Of a stretch of DNA of 64,000 bases, positions 12,274 to 64,000 are shown piece after piece. The DNA is from Candidatus Gastranaerophilales bacterium (lineage in GTDB: Bacteria > Cyanobacteriota > Vampirovibrionia > Gastranaerophilales > Gastranaerophilaceae). The DNA lies in the NCBI GenBank assembly GCA_944323735.1, contig CALUTO010000007.1, positions 1-64,000 of the forward strand, written 5' to 3'. Positions within the stretch are counted from its first letter, which is position 1; the number at the start of each line of letters is the position of its first letter. The notes beneath the pieces are model-generated. The model did no database searches. It was not told the DNA's origin and saw nothing but the letters and a program-made list of their open reading frames with translations. A program made the position numbers and the translations under genes.

Positions 12274-13158
12274 TTAACCTATTAAGTTCAGTGCAAGAGC
12301 GGGCATCTGGTTAGCCTGAACCAGAAGGGTTGCTGATGTTTGCTGAAGGATTTGTGCTTTTGTATAGTTTGCACTTTCTTCTGCAATATCAGCGTCCATA
12401 ATCGTTGATTTTGCTGATGTTGCGTTTTCAATTGTTGTTACAAGCGAATCTGCTGCTGAATTGAGCCTGTTTTGTACAGCACCGATTGTAGCTTTTCTTG
12501 TTGTTACATTCTGCAGTGCAGCATCAACATCAGCAATAAATTTCGCTGCAGTTGAAGCGAACTCAAATGCTTCTTCGATAGAAGTGAAATTATTCACGCT
12601 GTTCGCACCATACAGTCCGAGTGCCTGTGCTGATGCGCTGTCAAATACACTGGCAGAGACATAGATAGCATTTGTAGCTGTATCTGCATTTGCACCAACC
12701 TGCAGTCTCAAACCGCTCGGGTCTGTTTTTGCAATAGAACCGTCCAACAAATTCAAACCGTTGAAGTTTGAAGATTTTGCTATTCTGTTAATTTCATCTA
12801 CACGTGCTTTAACTTCATCTTCCATTGCTGTCAATGATTTTTGATCATAGACACCGTTTGCTGCCTGTGTTGCAAGGTCTCTGATACGAAGCAGGTTATC
12901 TTCGATTACTCCGAAGTCTCCTTCAGCAGTTTGCAATACGTTTATCCCTGTTGCTACGTTAGACTGTGCTATTTTTGAACCCCTGATTTGCGTGTTTAAG
13001 TTTGAAGCAACGAACATACCGGCTGCGTCATCTGCTGCCGAGTTGATTTTCAAACCTGTTGACATTCTGTTTAGTGATGTGTTCAGTGTGTTTGTGGCAC
13101 TGTTCAAATTTGCCTGCGTTTTAAGTGCAGACATGTTGGTGTTAACGATAATTGCCAT
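12274..13158 (-). CDS. fliC: Flagellin
   Basis: This 294-residue flagellin is the secreted filament subunit. It keeps the D0/D1 helices at both ends with a short middle. The N-terminus MAIIVNTNMSALKTQANLNS is followed by RMSTGLKINSAADDAAGMFV and the LLRIRDLATQAANG segment. The C-terminal marks are AVQNRLNSAADSL, DADIAEESANYTKAQILQQ and the end ANQMPALALNLIG, which also acts as the export/assembly end. There is no cysteine, as is normal for flagellins. AAAGGAGT precedes the ATG, and a strong terminator follows, so it is monocistronic. I did not find a sigma-28 promoter upstream, but the word CATACTAAAGT (13278-13288) is shared with the upstream region of the 45 kb flagellin. Confidence 0.97.
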   Translation of the reverse strand: MAIIVNTNMSALKTQANLNSATNTLNTSLNRMSTGLKINSAADDAAGMFVASNLNTQIRGSKIAQSNVATGINVLQTAEGDFGVIEDNLLRIRDLATQAANGVYDQKSLTAMEDEVKARVDEINRIAKSSNFNGLNLLDGSIAKTDPSGLRLQVGANADTATNAIYVSASVFDSASAQALGLYGANSVNNFTSIEEAFEFASTAAKFIADVDAALQNVTTRKATIGAVQNRLNSAADSLVTTIENATSAKSTIMDADIAEESANYTKAQILQQTSATLLVQANQMPALALNLIG

Positions 13159-13272
13159 CGTCGTACTCCTTTCGCATATCCTGTATTATTTACTTCCCTG
13201 TTTTTATGATTGTTTTTGTATTCTCATAATAAAGGATAAAACAGGAAAGGAGAATTCTTATTTAGTCTGGTT

Positions 13273-13296
13273 TTTTCCATACTAAAGTTGGAATTT
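13273..13296. promoter_or_regulatory. Palindromic site upstream of flagellin 1
   Basis: Arms TTCCA and TGGAA flank TACTAAAGT. The 11-base word CATACTAAAGT recurs exactly at 44877-44887 upstream of another flagellin. This is a candidate binding site for a flagellar regulator; no protein is known. Confidence 0.4.
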
Positions 13297-13329
13297 TTAT
13301 AAATTCACACACAAAAGTATAACAATGCT

Positions 13330-13346
13330 ATAACTATTTTAGTTAT
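13330..13346. repeat. Weak hairpin after flagellin 2
   Basis: ATAACTA and TAGTTAT form a 7-bp stem around TTT, just beyond the flagellin 2 stop on the minus strand. No U-run follows, so terminator function is doubtful. Confidence 0.3.
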
Positions 13347-13358
13347 GGTCAGTTACAT

Positions 13359-14231
13359 TTATTGCGGCAATAAGCTCAACGCAATTGCAGAACGTGAATT
13401 TGCCTGTGACATCATTGCAGCTGCTGTTTGCTGAAGTATCACATAGCGTGTATACTTCTGCGTTTCTTCCGCAATGTCTGTTTCCATCACAGTAGAATAT
13501 GCAGCAGTGTAGTTTTGATACTTAACGTTGAGTGTTTCCAAAGCCGCTTCCATTCTGTTTTGGGCAACTCCGGCATTGGAAATCTGTACTTTTACAATAT
13601 CCGATGCCGCTTCAAGTTCACCAATAAACTGCGCCGCAGAGGATGCGGTGGCAAATGCCTCCTCTATCGTAGCAAATGCAGCAGCAGAGCCTGTAATATT
13701 TAGAGCGTCCGTGTCTGTCTTTACAAAAACATCTGTTATATATATTGCATTTGTTGACGAATCAGCATTTGCGCCTATTTGTATTCTGACACCTTTGTCA
13801 CTATCAATAGAGCCGTCTAACAATTTTATATCGCTAAAACTGGATTCTTTTGCAATCCTGTTAATTTCATCAAGACGGGCCTCAACCTCTTTAACTATTT
13901 CAGATTTCTGGTCTGCATTAATTGTTCCGCTGGATGCCTGTGTTGCCAGATCTTTTATACGCTCTATCTGGTCATTTATAATCTGCAAATCGCCTGCCGC
14001 TGTTTCTGCAATATTATACCCCATCTGGATATTTGAAGAAGCAACCTGCATCCCGCTTAACTGTGAATTAATATTAGACGCAAAGTAATATCCGGCGGGG
14101 TCATCAGCTGCCGAATTAACTCTAAGCCCTGACGTAAGTCGTGCCAAACTTGTATTTATGTTATCAGAAGCAGCATAAAACTCATTTGCCGCACGCAAGT
14201 ACGCCAGATTAGTATTTATTACAATAGACAT
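13359..14231 (-). CDS. fliC: Flagellin
   Basis: This is a 290-residue flagellin when started at the ATG at 14231, which gives the canonical N-terminus MSIVINTNLAYLRAANEF and has AAGGAAT at a good distance. An upstream in-frame ATG (14285) would add 18 polar residues that do not fit the family and would run into the leader hairpin. D1 marks are RLTSGLRVNSAADDPAGYYF and IERIKDLATQASSG; the end is QANSRSAIALSLLPQ, slightly unlike the usual LLG terminus. It has no cysteine. It is a paralogue of the 12.3 kb gene, 200 bases away in the same direction, but each has its own leader and they probably form separate units. Confidence 0.96.
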   Translation of the reverse strand: MSIVINTNLAYLRAANEFYAASDNINTSLARLTSGLRVNSAADDPAGYYFASNINSQLSGMQVASSNIQMGYNIAETAAGDLQIINDQIERIKDLATQASSGTINADQKSEIVKEVEARLDEINRIAKESSFSDIKLLDGSIDSDKGVRIQIGANADSSTNAIYITDVFVKTDTDALNITGSAAAFATIEEAFATASSAAQFIGELEAASDIVKVQISNAGVAQNRMEAALETLNVKYQNYTAAYSTVMETDIAEETQKYTRYVILQQTAAAMMSQANSRSAIALSLLPQ

Positions 14232-14253
14232 TTTAAATTCCTTTTTGTTTTTT

Positions 14254-14274
14254 CTGTTCTCATCCTGAGAACAG
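14254..14274 (-). repeat. Leader hairpin ahead of flagellin 2
   Basis: CTGTTCTCA and TGAGAACAG are perfect 9-base complementary arms with a 3-base loop. They end about 12 bases before the ribosome binding site of the flagellin at 14231. It could protect the 5' end of the message or control translation. Confidence 0.55.
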
Positions 14275-14638
14275 CCGATACGCATACAACAAAACCCTGA
14301 TTCTCTGCTTGCAGCAGAAAAAAGTCTATCAGCCCTGTTGTATATAGTTATTAGTAGATAAGTTTATTGGGGAAATTTAATTCCAACATATACAGTATAA
14401 AATTTTTTTCGCTGTACATGAAGAGAAATTTATATAATATTTACAAATCTAAATATAAATTTTATATATATTTTTAATACGATAATAATACAATATACGA
14501 TAATTGTAACATTTTATGTCTTTTGGTAAATTAGCCTGAAATATAATAGCAAAATTTATTTTTTCGATTTTTCTATCTAATAAAGAAAAGAATAATAAAG
14601 TAATTTTGCAATAATAACATGCAAAATAAAAGACTTAT

Positions 14639-24909: not shown

Positions 24910-25722
24910 TTAAATCAAGTTAAGCAGCAATTTTTCTGACTGCATAGACGACTTAATAACCTGTATAAGGCTCTCCTGAGTAATTCCGGCCTGTTTAAAT
25001 TTCAGAAACGCACTCAGGTAATCTGCGTCTGACAAGGAACTTTTTGAAGCTGTAGAGTTCATCATGTTCGTCATCTGCTGTTCAATTGAGCTCTGAAGTT
25101 TTGCGTTAGTTGCTCCGAGTTCTCCCCTTTTTGTATTTATGTCCGACATAAGACTATCAATGGATTCCAATGCAGCACGGGCACCATCCGTTGTAGTTAT
25201 GTCAAAATTCATTTCACCAAGGGTCATGTTCGGGTCATAAGAAACCATTGACTCCGAACCTGATCCGGTACCAACCTGAAAATTAATCTCAGGCACCGGA
25301 TTTTCCCCTGTTGAAACTACATTTAAAACATCCTTTCCGTTAAATGTTGCATTACCTAATGACTGTCTTATTTGTTCAACATTATGGTTTATTTCCATTT
25401 GAATTGCGTTACGCTGGCTGTCAGAGTAAACACCATTTGCTGCCTGAACAGCCAGTTCACGAATTCTGCCCAGTGCTCCGGAAACATTATTCAGTGTTGC
25501 ATCGGCTACAGCCGTAAAATTAATACCCGTCTGGGCATTCTCCATTGCTTGATTTGCAGCACGAATTTCTGTTTCCAGTTTTTGTGAGATATACTCATCA
25601 GCAGGATTTACATTCGCAAGTAAACCGCTGGCAATTTCCTGAATTGCCTCTGTTTGAGCCTCCTGCGCTCTGGTAATCCCTGTTTGGGCAATATATATAG
25701 GCATTACTGCACTTAATGACAT
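24910..25722 (-). CDS. Divergent flagellin-like protein
   Basis: This 270-residue protein keeps the flagellin coiled architecture: the NNVSGALGRIRELAVQAANG segment (about residues 80-98), the following YSDSQRNAIQMEINHNVEQI, and paired terminal helices. The canonical ends have drifted. It opens MSLSAVMPIYIAQTGITRAQ in place of an INTN start, the RLSSG...DDAAG box is replaced by EIASGLLANVNPADEYISQK, and the end is KSSMQSEKLLLNLI in place of the ALSLLG-type end. There is no cysteine. It could be a minor filament subunit, cap-proximal protein or FlgL-like junction protein. No clear Shine-Dalgarno sequence precedes the ATG. It is monocistronic, with a terminator after it. Confidence 0.85.
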   Translation of the reverse strand: MSLSAVMPIYIAQTGITRAQEAQTEAIQEIASGLLANVNPADEYISQKLETEIRAANQAMENAQTGINFTAVADATLNNVSGALGRIRELAVQAANGVYSDSQRNAIQMEINHNVEQIRQSLGNATFNGKDVLNVVSTGENPVPEINFQVGTGSGSESMVSYDPNMTLGEMNFDITTTDGARAALESIDSLMSDINTKRGELGATNAKLQSSIEQQMTNMMNSTASKSSLSDADYLSAFLKFKQAGITQESLIQVIKSSMQSEKLLLNLI

Positions 25723-45040: not shown

Positions 45041-45973
45041 ATGGGAATTTATGTAAACACTAACATCAACTCCCTGATCGCACAGAGAAGCTTGACAAAT
45101 GCAACAAGCAACATGCAAAATGCAATAACCAGGCTTTCTACCGGTCTCAGAGTAAACCACGCAGGTGATGACGCAGCAGGTCTTTGCGTAGCTCAAGGTT
45201 TGGAAACACTCATCAGAGGTAACAGCAGAGCTAAATTAAATATTCAAGACGGCTTGAATATGATGTATATCGCAGAAGGCGGTATGGAAGGTGTAACAGA
45301 GGACTTGCAGAGAATTCGTGAGTTGTGCGTACAGGTAGCGAGTGATATTTACTCACCTGAACAAAAACAAACACTGATGAACGAAATTCAGCAAAGACTC
45401 GAAGACATCGACGTTATTGCAAACACCACCTCCTTCAACGGCGTTGTTCTGACAAACGGAACAAACCCCGAAAAAATGACAATTCAGTCAGGAAGCGGAT
45501 GGGATGAAGTTAACAACTCTATCGATATTGCACCGGCATTGACTAACATGTTGACCTCCGTACTCGGTGTTAAGTTGAATATCGTCTCTATTGATGAAGC
45601 GGTTGATACAACTGTCTCTGTCGGAAATATGACATACACTGAAGGCGGTGTTGCAGGTACTAAAATTAACGGCAGCAACTGGGACAGTGACATGGTTCGT
45701 GATTACATCAGAAAACTTGATGATGCCATTAACCTGATTGCAGAAAACAGATCATCTTTAGGTGCTTACCAGAACCGTTTGACTTCTGCAAGCAACAACC
45801 TGACTATCATGAACGAAAACTATGAACAAAGTAAATCCCAGATTATGGATGCTGACATGGCTGAAGAAAGTGCAAACATGGTTAAATATCAGGTTCTCCA
45901 GCAAACATCAGCAACAATGTTAGCACAGGCTAACCAGATACCTTCAATCGCTCTTACCCTTCTGGGAGGCTAA
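45041..45973 (+). CDS. fliC: Flagellin with conserved-core cysteines
   Basis: This 310-residue flagellin starts MGIYVNTNINSLIAQRSLTN. It carries ITRLSTGLRVNHAGDDAAG and QRIRELCVQVA in D1, and ends DADMAEESANMVKYQVLQQ and ANQIPSIALTLLGG. Unusually it has two cysteines in the conserved core, Cys49 (GLCVAQGL, normally GLAI) and Cys96 (RELCVQVA, normally RELAVQAA); flagellins normally lack cysteine. It is the only one of the four flagellins here with a clear sigma-28 promoter. A purine-rich GAGAGAGAA element precedes the ATG. A hairpin follows, so it is monocistronic. Confidence 0.97.
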   Translation: MGIYVNTNINSLIAQRSLTNATSNMQNAITRLSTGLRVNHAGDDAAGLCVAQGLETLIRGNSRAKLNIQDGLNMMYIAEGGMEGVTEDLQRIRELCVQVASDIYSPEQKQTLMNEIQQRLEDIDVIANTTSFNGVVLTNGTNPEKMTIQSGSGWDEVNNSIDIAPALTNMLTSVLGVKLNIVSIDEAVDTTVSVGNMTYTEGGVAGTKINGSNWDSDMVRDYIRKLDDAINLIAENRSSLGAYQNRLTSASNNLTIMNENYEQSKSQIMDADMAEESANMVKYQVLQQTSATMLAQANQIPSIALTLLGG

Positions 45974-51603: not shown

Positions 51604-51630
51604 TCAAGTTTTAAAAAAAGATGCCGATAT
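51604..51630 (+). promoter_or_regulatory. Sigma-28 promoter of the 51.7 kb small gene
   Basis: TCAAGTTT (51604-51611), an 11-base spacer and GCCGATAT (51623-51630) match the FliA/SigD consensus with one change in each box. Transcription from about 51637 gives a leader of about 55 bases carrying AGGAGG. Confidence 0.8.
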
Positions 51631-51691
51631 ATAAAATATCAAACCAAGGATATGCGGTTTGTGTGTAGTTACATTATAGGAGGCGTATTTC

Positions 51692-51847
51692 GTGATTTCA
51701 AAAAACAAGTACTATGGGATGGACACTTCAATCGAAGAATTGGAGGAAGACCTCCGGGATCTCAAATGTATGTTCAACGAGAAGAGTTTTTTAAAGACAA
51801 GAAAAAAGGAGAAAAAATTCAAAAATAAAATAGCCTGGGAACAATAA
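51692..51847 (+). CDS. 51-residue protein under a sigma-28 promoter
   Basis: The GTG start has a perfect AGGAGG eight bases upstream. The product opens MISKNKYYGMDTSIEELEED and continues LRDLKCMFNEKSFLKTRKKE, ending basic (KKFKNKIAWEQ). The layout is an acidic helix followed by a Lys-rich tail, with one cysteine and no signal peptide or membrane helix. A sigma-28 promoter lies upstream and a bidirectional terminator downstream, so it is a stand-alone late flagellar gene by regulation. I recognise no family; FlgM, CsrA and FliT do not fit. A small chaperone, anti-sigma or motility modulator is possible but unsupported by homology. Confidence 0.75.
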   Translation: MISKNKYYGMDTSIEELEEDLRDLKCMFNEKSFLKTRKKEKKFKNKIAWEQ

Positions 51848-60584: not shown

Positions 60585-60624
60585 ATTGTTATGTGTTTTA
60601 GTTTTAGGAGGCTTCAAAGAGCAC

Positions 60625-60996
60625 GTGGAAAAACCCGATTTAATCCAAAAAACAAAAACAAAAAACAAAAAACGTAAAAATGAAATCCGTTTTTACTATT
60701 CATTTTTGACTATTGTTCTGCTTATATGTCTCGCGCAAATAGGTATAAGTGCTTGTAAAAATATAACTAAAAGCATAAGTTACCATGGAAAAATTAAAAA
60801 AATGAAAGAGTTAAACGAACAGGCATATGCTGAAAACCAGCGTCTCAAAGAAGAGCTTGAAGATTTTAACTCTATGAAAAGCCTTGAGGCTATTGCCCGC
60901 AACAATTTAAAAATGGCAGGTGAAAATGAAGTTCTTGTAATAATTAACAAGCCCAAACAGGAACCGCCTGAAGATACAAAAAAGAAGAAAAAATAA
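60625..60996 (+). CDS. FtsL/DivIC-type septum formation initiator
   Basis: This bitopic protein of about 123 residues has a basic cytosolic start (KTKTKNKKRKNEIRF), one hydrophobic helix (YYSFLTIVLLICLAQIGISA), then an external coiled coil (KIKKMKELNEQAYAENQRLK) and a C-terminal KSLEAIARNNLKMAGENEVL segment typical of the DivIC/FtsB/FtsL family, ending in a Lys-rich tail. It bridges FtsQ and the septal synthase. The GTG at 60625 follows AGGAGG by 13 bases, rather long; upstream in-frame TTG codons exist but overlap the promoter. A hairpin terminator follows. Confidence 0.82.
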   Translation: MEKPDLIQKTKTKNKKRKNEIRFYYSFLTIVLLICLAQIGISACKNITKSISYHGKIKKMKELNEQAYAENQRLKEELEDFNSMKSLEAIARNNLKMAGENEVLVIINKPKQEPPEDTKKKKK

Positions 60997-61085: not shown

Positions 61086-61241
61086 TTATTTGAGTGCCAC
61101 GAGTTTATTCTTAATTCCCAGATCAGAATTAATCATTCTGGCACTGGCTATTGCCATAGATCTTCTTTTCTTCGCACCACGGAGGAGGAATGCCACACCG
61201 TCTGAAATATTGCTCGATGGTTTTTGCGATTTTTTTATCAT
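61086..61241 (-). CDS. 51-residue basic protein under a sigma-28 promoter
   Basis: The ATG at 61241 has AAAAGGGC five bases upstream. The product opens MIKKSQKPSSNISDGVAFLL, then RGAKKRRSMAIASARMINSD, and ends in KNKLVALK. It is strongly basic, has no cysteine and no signal peptide. A longer frame starting at 61283 is ruled out because that ATG lies inside the -10 box of a near-consensus sigma-28 promoter (61274-61300). It is therefore probably expressed with late flagellar genes. No family is recognised and it does not resemble the other 51-residue sigma-28 gene at 51.7 kb. It is convergent with the divIC-type gene. Confidence 0.75.
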   Translation of the reverse strand: MIKKSQKPSSNISDGVAFLLRGAKKRRSMAIASARMINSDLGIKNKLVALK

Positions 61242-61273
61242 TTTATGCCCTTTTAGTAAACTGTATATTACTT

Positions 61274-61300
61274 TTATCGGCATTCTTTTTTTTATCTTTA
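61274..61300 (-). promoter_or_regulatory. Sigma-28 promoter of the 61.1 kb small gene
   Basis: On the minus strand TAAAGATA, an 11-base spacer and a perfect GCCGATAA match the FliA/SigD consensus. Transcription from about 61267 gives a leader of about 25 bases that holds the ribosome binding site. Confidence 0.85.
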
Positions 61301-61432
61301 GAAATTAATCCAAAATTTTTACATAAATTAACATTTCAATAAAAATCATACATATATTGTAACCTTTTTGACTAATTGTTAAGTTTATAAGAAAATTAAT
61401 GTATATGCTTAGACTTGGGATTAGAGTAGTTA

Positions 61433-64000
61433 ATGTTTATTAAAGAAGTAGAGATTGATAACTTCAAATCTTTTGCCAACAAAGTTAATATACCGTTTTT
61501 AGAAGGTTTTACGACGATATCCGGACCGAACGGCTCAGGAAAGAGTAATATCATAGACAGTGTGCTTTTTGCGCTCGGTCTGTCGTCGTCACGTACATTA
61601 AGAGCCGAAAAAATATCCCAGCTTATCTCTACTCACACCAGAAGAAACGAAGCATTTGTAAAAGTGACTTTCCAGACAGACGACCCCGGCAACAAAGACC
61701 TGACAGTCGGAAGAAGAATAAAAAAAACCTCTCAGGGCTATAACAGCATATATTACTTAAACGACAAAATCGTCACCCTCTCCGATATACATGCTCTGCT
61801 TGAAAAATATAACATTACACCAAACAGCTACAATGTTATTATGCAGGGCGATGTTACCAGTATTACCGGCTGCTCTGACGGAGAAAGAAGAAAGATTATT
61901 GATGAAATTGCGGGAGTCGCTGATTTTGACAGACGAATAGAACAGGCTTCCAGAGAACTGGAGACAGTTGAAAACAGAGTTCAAAAATCCACGCTCATAC
62001 TGACAGAAGTAGATGCAAGGCTTGAGCAGCTCTCATCAGAACGGGAAGTTGCATTAAAATACAAAAAATTAAAAGAAGAAAAAACAGGACTGGAAAGCCA
62101 GATATCAACTGTAAAATACTTTGATATCAAAAAAAATCTTGAAAGAACACATGAAAGCATACTTGATGCGGATAAGAAGAAAAAAGAAGAATCTTCTAAG
62201 CTCAAAAAACTCGAAACCCAATCTCTGCAAGTCAAAGCAAAACTGGATGAACTCTCAGATCTCGTTAAAGAAAAGGGAGAAGCTGAACAAATTGAGGTCA
62301 AAAAGCAGGTTGAAGAAATTAAAGGGCAGATAGACAGAAAAGAATCTGCCATTACATTTGCGGACAAAAATATTCAGGATAACCTGAAAACTGTTGAAAA
62401 CGCAAAAAACGGTATCCAGAAACTTACGGAAAAAAACGAAAAAATCAAAGAACAGATTGAGCAAAAAAATAATGAATTAGCCTCTCTTGAAGAACAAAAA
62501 CAGGCAGAAAAAAACAAGCTCATGGAAATTTTACAGGAAGTATCGGGCTTGAGCCAGACAGCAGACCAGTATCTTGAACAGAGAAATGCTCTCCGTAAAG
62601 AATATGAACAGACAAAAGATGAAGAAACAAAACTTATCCAGAGTCAGGCACCTTTAGAGTCCGAGCTGAGTAACCTTTTAAAAGAACTGTCGGAAGCCAA
62701 AACAAAAGTTGAAGAACTTGAAGATTTCAAGAAAAATTTTGCGGGCAACAAAGATATATTAGAAACACAGGTTGAAGAACTCGGGAAAGAACTCGAGGAT
62801 TTCAAAACCATTCAGCAGAACACCCTGTACGAATTGGACAAAACAAAAAATGAAATAAATGATTTGAACTACAATATTCAAACAGCCTATCGTAAAATCA
62901 CTTCCATGGAGGCGCAAAAGCAGGCATACAACGATGTAAACTTCGGACGTGCTGTTGATACTGTTTTGAATGCAAAAATTTCAGGCGTTCATGCTACGCT
63001 TGCCCAGCTCGGACAGGTGGATAAGGAATACTCAACTGCTCTTGAAGTTGCTATGGGCGGCAGAATGGCTAACGTAGTTGTTGATGATGATGAAGTCGCG
63101 AGAGTTGCAATTGAAATTCTCAAGAGTGCAAATGCAGGTCGTGCTACATTCTTGCCGATGAACAAGATTAATAAAGCACCCCGCTCATTAAAACTGCCCA
63201 AAGAAAAAGGTGTGATTGATTTTGCAATAAATCTGATTGATTTCGATGATGAGTATTTGAATGTCTTTTTCCATGCACTGGGTGAAACGCTTGTGGTTGA
63301 AGACTATAATACGGCGCGTAAACTCATCGGTCAGTACAGAATGGTTACGCTCTCGGGTGAACTTTTTGAAAAATCCGGCTCAATCACAGGCGGTTCTGCA
63401 AAACGTACAGGTCTTAAGTTCAGCCAGACACAGGATGATGAGCTTGAAAAATATAAGGCAAGATTAAAAGAGTTTGAGAATAATTATGCTGCACTCGAGC
63501 GAAAAAAATCCGAACTGGAAGAAAAGCTCGATAAAGTCAGAATAAATTACTCAAATACAATGACCGAGCACAACAAAGCAAAAATGGAGCTTCAAAATCT
63601 GCTGAAAAATTCAGAAGAAAATGAAAATAATATTGCGCAAAGAAAACAGTTTATTGCAGAAACCGAACCCAAAATCCAAAAACTGGAAAAAGAACTTGAA
63701 AAGCTTGAAGAAAAACATATAGAGCTTAACGACAAAACTCTTGAGCTTGATGACAAAATTAAAGAAATTGAAGCAAAAATGAGCCCCGAAGAGCTCACTA
63801 ACCTGAAAAAACTTACGGAAGAATCAGAAAATATTATCAAACAGATTGAAGCAAAAATTGCGACAGGAAACAATGATATTGACGGATTTAACCGTGAAAT
63901 CGTATTTAATGACAGTATTATAGAAACACGTCATAAAGATATCGAAGGTTTGCACAAAGACAACGAAAATCTTGCACAGGATAAAATCAGATATAAAGGT
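61433..64000 (+). CDS. smc: Chromosome segregation protein SMC (partial, runs off right edge)
   Basis: There are 856 codons open to the window edge. The N-terminal ABC half has MFIKEVEIDNFKSFANKV and the Walker A GPNGSGKSNIIDSVLFALGL, then NVIMQGDVTSI and ERRKIIDEIAGVADFD. Long coiled coils follow (about residues 170-500), a hinge domain around residues 505-660 with GVHATLAQLGQV, ALEVAMGGRMANVVVDDDE and FLPMNKIN, and then the returning coil that begins after SGSITGGSAKR. The C-terminal ATPase half is outside the window. The hinge has the usual glycine-rich SMC features. SMC compacts and segregates the chromosome with ScpA and ScpB. Confidence 0.97.
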   Translation, partial: MFIKEVEIDNFKSFANKVNIPFLEGFTTISGPNGSGKSNIIDSVLFALGLSSSRTLRAEKISQLISTHTRRNEAFVKVTFQTDDPGNKDLTVGRRIKKTSQGYNSIYYLNDKIVTLSDIHALLEKYNITPNSYNVIMQGDVTSITGCSDGERRKIIDEIAGVADFDRRIEQASRELETVENRVQKSTLILTEVDARLEQLSSEREVALKYKKLKEEKTGLESQISTVKYFDIKKNLERTHESILDADKKKKEESSKLKKLETQSLQVKAKLDELSDLVKEKGEAEQIEVKKQVEEIKGQIDRKESAITFADKNIQDNLKTVENAKNGIQKLTEKNEKIKEQIEQKNNELASLEEQKQAEKNKLMEILQEVSGLSQTADQYLEQRNALRKEYEQTKDEETKLIQSQAPLESELSNLLKELSEAKTKVEELEDFKKNFAGNKDILETQVEELGKELEDFKTIQQNTLYELDKTKNEINDLNYNIQTAYRKITSMEAQKQAYNDVNFGRAVDTVLNAKISGVHATLAQLGQVDKEYSTALEVAMGGRMANVVVDDDEVARVAIEILKSANAGRATFLPMNKINKAPRSLKLPKEKGVIDFAINLIDFDDEYLNVFFHALGETLVVEDYNTARKLIGQYRMVTLSGELFEKSGSITGGSAKRTGLKFSQTQDDELEKYKARLKEFENNYAALERKKSELEEKLDKVRINYSNTMTEHNKAKMELQNLLKNSEENENNIAQRKQFIAETEPKIQKLEKELEKLEEKHIELNDKTLELDDKIKEIEAKMSPEELTNLKKLTEESENIIKQIEAKIATGNNDIDGFNREIVFNDSIIETRHKDIEGLHKDNENLAQDKIRYKG

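Follow-up and report, generated by a model that had tools for sequence, protein, structure and literature searches.

The window, that is the whole stretch of 64,000 nucleotides analysed here, carries on its minus strand a 51-codon gene lying between a convergent DivIC/FtsB-type gene and a divergent smc gene (Table 1). It is preceded by a sigma-28-type promoter and, further upstream, by a direct repeat resembling the HLR1 sites of cyanobacteria. The frame starts 32 bases past the -10 element GCCGATAA on the same strand. A 65-codon reading from an in-frame ATG at position 61283 was rejected: this ATG falls inside the -10 element, and transcription is expected to begin downstream of it (around 61267), so that a sigma-28 transcript could use the 51-codon start only. 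Two other candidates were discarded: a sigma70-type promoter, for which the scan was barely above shuffled sequences, and a structured RNA, an Rfam scan of the window having returned no match.

Table 1. Features of the 51-codon locus and of the sibling locus near 51.7 kb (positions in the window)
Feature	Position	Strand	Basis or remark
51-codon gene	61241-61086	minus	ATG at 61241, stop included; basic protein with a single predicted helix, new family
Ribosome-binding-site-like AAAAGGGC	61247..61254	minus	sequence; precedes ATG 61241
Sigma-28 -10 element GCCGATAA	61274..61281	minus	promoter scan, ortholog comparison
Sigma-28 -35 element TAAAGATA	61293..61300	minus	11-nt spacer to the -10 element
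HLR1/RpaB-like direct repeat TTTACATA-AA-TTAACATT	61318..61335	plus	precedes the -35 core by 18 bp when read along the gene
Convergent DivIC/FtsB-type gene	60586..60996	plus	start uncertain; commonest downstream neighbour of orthologs
Divergent smc	61433..64000	plus	runs off the window; neighbour in own genus and L047 only
Sibling locus, whole extent	51604..51844	plus	
Sibling sigma-28-like promoter	51604-51630	plus	promoter scan; weaker
Sibling 51-codon gene, GTG start	51692-51844	plus	relatives in own genus, G008 and G022 only

The small gene proposed in the initial annotation is real. Substitutions between close ortholog pairs are distributed 914/418/2330 over codon positions 1/2/3, and the nearest relative shows 16 nucleotide differences and one amino-acid difference: the frame is under protein selection. 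Matches at E <= 10 were recovered in 51 of 59 relatives (most of them strong), a scan of species genomes gave 32 loci, most labelled Gastranaerophilales or Melainabacteria, and a profile search retrieved the gene from 148 of the 240 class genomes covered; the family belongs to Gastranaerophilales and related Vampirovibrionia. When the phylum was sampled, 62 matches were obtained, every one within the window's own family and none in another class. Extra copies occur in G028 (three places) and in G021 (a tandem pair, at two places some 400 bp from each other). One sequence titled uncultured Clostridia (L050, CAMEWS010000023.1) also has the gene next to a divIC-type gene, as in the window, and probably comes from a mislabelled draft genome.

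The product is very basic, as had been noted (pI 11.6, charge +9.5), and all 20 family members compared share this property (+5.5 to +9.5). Residues M1, N11, V16, F18, G22, A23, K25, R26, R27, A30 and A49 are invariant among 20 diverse members. AlphaFold predicts a single helix (residues 14-40, mean pLDDT 78.6, confident over approximately 11-30) with loose ends. Searches of Pfam and NCBIfam gave no match and a profile search against PDB gave none. The protein may consist of one short, basic alpha-helix between flexible arms and work inside the cell as an accessory of the sigma-28 programme proposed below, by binding to nucleic acid or to an acidic partner, a role which we propose only tentatively. 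It is possible, if somewhat unlikely, that it binds the nucleoid or RNA and has a function similar to that of the chlamydial HctB. The basic character of every member and the invariant K-R-R patch would fit such a factor, as would the observation that knock-down of sigma-28 in Chlamydia significantly lowered only hctB and tsp (PMC10597470). However, the Pfam and NCBIfam searches relate the protein to no family, only one helix is predicted, and the conserved hydrophobic residues V16, F18, L20 and L47 suggest a protein partner.

The promoter TAAAGATA-N11-GCCGATAA (61300-61274, minus strand) is the only zero-mismatch sigma-28 match of the window. The E. coli consensus is TAAAGTTT-n11-GCCGATAA, with TAAAGATA as the -35 element of the native aer promoter (PMC2859248). 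In the whole genome, the pattern TAAAG-N14-16-CCGATA occurs in 20 places against 2 for the reversed control. All 60 distinct orthologs examined carry the promoter: 39, 16 and 5 of them show 0, 1 and 2 mismatches over the 11 core bases, where shuffled sequences would give 0, 0.5 and 10.5, although these related sequences are not independent. Spacing is constant (15-16), whereas the start codon follows at distances between 22 and 89 bases, and the promoter remains recognisable across different families and orders as its flanks change. The genome encodes a FliA/WhiG-type sigma factor (TIGR02479, 233 bits for a cutoff of 189.6), and RNA polymerase carrying this FliA-type sigma-28 would transcribe the 51-codon gene. 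The comparative alignment of frame and promoter, which the initial annotation had put forward as a check, finds both conserved, and its textbook sigma-28 promoter is confirmed by sequence comparison as real and conserved.

The direct repeat of the window departs by one mismatch from the 16 specified bases of HLR1. On the strand of the gene it takes the form TGTAA-N5-TGTAA, which ends 17-19 bp before the -35 core in 40 of the 60 orthologs. Perfect copies are present in 28 of the 60 (0.1 expected) and none was observed in a control region further upstream. In a few others the repeat lies one turn further from the -35 element, and in some flagellin-less orthologs it is weak or absent. Read on the opposite strand, this pattern is the HLR1 element, two KTTACAWW repeats 2 nt apart: HLR1 is described as (G/T)TTACA(T/A)(T/A)-N2-(G/T)TTACA(T/A)(T/A) and is the binding site of RpaB, a regulator that acts as an activator when its site precedes the start (PMC11633204, PMC9241938). 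The association extends well beyond this gene. The composite TGTAA-N5-TGTAA-N17-19-TAAAG, a search pattern made of the repeat and TAAAG with the -10 element left unspecified, occurs in 63 places in 20 genomes and nowhere when reversed. Of 30 such sites read out, nearly all are followed by a gene preceded by a ribosome-binding site, and 26 have CCGATA (two mismatches at most) at the right spacing against 4.5 expected. The repeats are phase-locked to the sigma-28 promoters, which suggests that they mark a set of RpaB targets.

An RpaB equivalog (NF045944, cutoff 330) scores 369 bits in the window's own genome and 361.8 bits in one flagellin-less genome. The equivalogs lie at L163:1486-2238 and L160:991-1749, in non-photosynthetic gut bacteria. 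RpaB, an OmpR-type response regulator, would bind at a distance of slightly less than two helical turns ahead of the -35 element and activate transcription, and it is the most likely activator at the repeat. Activation of a sigma-28 promoter by an upstream regulator has precedents: in E. coli, direct activation by CRP at sigma-28 promoters was found only at aer and trg (PMC2859248). Like the promoter described here, these FliA promoters follow the consensus, aer has the same -35 element, and the activator may sit just upstream; unlike them, the upstream site here is an HLR1-type repeat common to dozens of promoters. The cyanobacterial RpaB/HLR1 system (PMC11633204, PMC9241938) offers the same repeat and spacing, an RpaB equivalog and a position that fits activation. 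It differs in that the present host is non-photosynthetic and that the repeats are paired with sigma-28 promoters. Alternatively, the repeat could belong to another regulator, RpaA-type or another OmpR paralog. The genome encodes three OmpR-type regulators, and homologs of both RpaA and RpaB were reported by Di Rienzi et al. (PMC3787301). This attribution appears rather unlikely to us, since sequence and spacing of the repeat are those of HLR1, the RpaB site.

Several unrelated small proteins (approximately 43-77 codons) are found behind sigma-28 promoters, with or without the repeat, as the initial annotation had anticipated in proposing a wider set of small undescribed proteins. The product encoded near 51.7 kb is, as stated there, unlike the 51-aa protein: it is a separate protein, also real, with its own, narrower conservation that covers its own genus and two further genera. 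Large proteins of 200-550 codons also occur behind such promoters and include recurring families starting with MGM/MGLxAxQAR. In flagellin-less genomes, sigma-28 promoters (L113-L151, L189-L218) lead into undescribed families of 43-44 aa (..WPGxYSF..), 48-49 aa (..FDMTLPIQILFDDVMNFVSKTD..) and 69-77 aa (..MEDLMxDYGEMTSF..). The same genomes have large MGMxAxQAR proteins behind sigma-28 promoters, one of them near the export cluster described below. The product encoded at positions 298-1257 of the window has an MgtE_N-type domain, and the flagellin-less genome G077 (L119) has a similar-looking protein behind a sigma-28 promoter.

The gene had been described as late-flagellar. Flagellin was detected in 68 of the 240 class genomes. 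When both match lists are tallied by hand, gene and flagellin occur together in 46 genomes, the gene alone in 102 (G170 being doubtful), flagellin alone in 22 and neither in 70; non-detection of flagellin concerns draft genomes, most of which are more than 95% complete. A FliA-type sigma above the curated cutoff is present in 186 of the 240 genomes, including flagellin-less members of the family, and a FliA_WhiG match at E<1e-57 accompanies the 51-aa gene in every genome that carries it, except for the doubtful match in G170. About two thirds of the carriers thus lack flagellin yet have FliA, and the promoter persists, with 0-2 mismatches, at the flagellin-less loci that were inspected (L010, L012, L017, L020, L025 and L026 among them). 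The 51-aa gene is not flagellum-specific, and the late-flagellar description is too narrow and not supported in that form. Conversely, genus g22 and families f10 and f14 possess FliA and export genes but lack the gene.

An ordinary late-flagellar gene, expressed alongside the filament genes for assembly or motility, could still linger after a recent loss of the flagellum. The canonical sigma-28 promoter would agree with such a history, as would the 9 flagellin matches of the window's own genome and the one-mismatch sigma-28 promoter of one flagellin in the window. Yet a relic would decay, and roughly 101 flagellin-less genomes of the window's family, belonging to many genera, keep the gene. 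Moreover, the flagellin-bearing g22, f10 and f14 do without it. We regard this explanation as improbable. Flagellin-type genes lie at 12274-14285, 24910-25722 and 45041-45973 of the window; a near-consensus promoter (one mismatch) is found only at the gene starting at 45041, the others having none or a weak one. No flagellar genes were seen among the ORFs scanned around fliA in the window's own genome.

A search of 15 genomes for the anti-sigma factor FlgM (PF04316) was positive in just one, although FliA is present. The flgM gene belongs to the sigma-28 regulon in model bacteria, and so does the 51-aa gene here, which raises the question of an unrecognised feedback anti-sigma or sigma-28 regulator replacing FlgM. 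We consider this very improbable: the 51-aa protein has no similarity to FlgM and gave no Pfam match to PF04316, it is absent from several FliA-bearing families, and in G092 the gene coexists with FlgM.

FlhA-family proteins, components of flagellar-type export machines, are present in 186 of the 240 genomes. Flagellated members of the family typically have one FlhA copy at E ~1e-260 and a second at ~1e-219, whereas nearly all flagellin-less members have only the ~1e-219 type (in G137 and G236 it was found only in pieces). The second FlhA of the window's own genome (G000:C8:66710-68827) is flanked by FliI/SctN-type ATPase, FliH-type and FliF-type proteins, and at the matching place a FliE-type gene is found in a flagellin-less relative. 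It scores below both NCBIfam equivalog cutoffs, that of FlhA (701.7 for 772.1) and that of SctV (600.5 for 692.25). The divergent cluster spans G000:C8:65364-72513 (L153/L154) in the window's own genome and G009:C11:295080-301066 (L155) in a flagellin-less genome, with FliF-, FliH- and FlhA-type genes in both, a FliI-type gene in the former and a FliE-type gene in the latter. Flagellin-less genomes contain one to three rod-type genes, which in G009 lie a few kilobases from fliA. The 51-aa gene shows no physical linkage to the export cluster. Flagellin-less lineages therefore retain both FliA/sigma-28 and a second, divergent flagellar-type export apparatus, and RpaB co-occurs with them. This second apparatus presumably secretes proteins.

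The explanation we favour, and consider likely on these genomic patterns, is a sigma-28-dependent regulon, probably activated by RpaB, that serves the second export machine and would have the 51-aa helix as one conserved member. Its genes would act with this flagellar-derived type III apparatus and its partners and not with the flagellar filament, and would for this reason survive in lineages without flagellin. The data thus suggest a programme that is independent of the flagellum and linked to a second secretion machine. A broader proposition, to which we give somewhat less than an even chance, is that gut Melainabacteria possess a type III secretion programme that is dedicated, non-flagellar and controlled jointly by sigma-28 and RpaB, with the 51-aa helix as a core class-specific part, and that turning on a secretion regulon is, or once was, an older function of RpaB.

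The nearest functional parallel to the 51-aa gene, offered as an analogy and not as homology, is Chlamydia, where sigma-28 is kept without flagella beside a type III apparatus and controls a small basic protein (PMC10597470). Compared with the chlamydial hctB/tsp pair, the regulon here is larger, the protein has one predicted helix, and Pfam and NCBIfam reveal no sequence relation. Buchnera basal bodies (PMC8109811) likewise illustrate the retention of flagellar-type export and basal-body genes without a working flagellum, but in the present case flagellated relatives carry both systems, and sigma-28 and its regulon are kept.

Partial flagellar gene sets in most Gastranaerophilales were read by Soo et al. 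as remains of a lost flagellum (PMC4040986). In the genomes compared here, flagellated relatives have two distinct export systems, and flagellin-less lineages keep the second together with sigma-28 and the promoter regulon. A textbook flagellar promoter alone is not evidence of motility. RpaB is reported to act in light control in cyanobacteria, and Di Rienzi et al. remarked that the RpaA, RpaB and NblS homologs of non-photosynthetic Melainabacteria "may have another function" (PMC3787301). The composite HLR1-sigma-28 promoter would provide a concrete target set for the RpaB homologs of these bacteria, and the 51-aa gene a handle on the regulon in common gut bacteria.

A link between motility and the cell cycle had been put forward as possible from the position between the divIC-type gene and smc; it was rejected as the neighbour is not conserved, other genes taking the place of smc beside orthologs outside the own genus and L047. 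The divIC-type gene is an old neighbour, although it has no promoter in common with the 51-codon gene and is missing beside many orthologs. A terminator-like site is present inside it on the minus strand (60972-60952).
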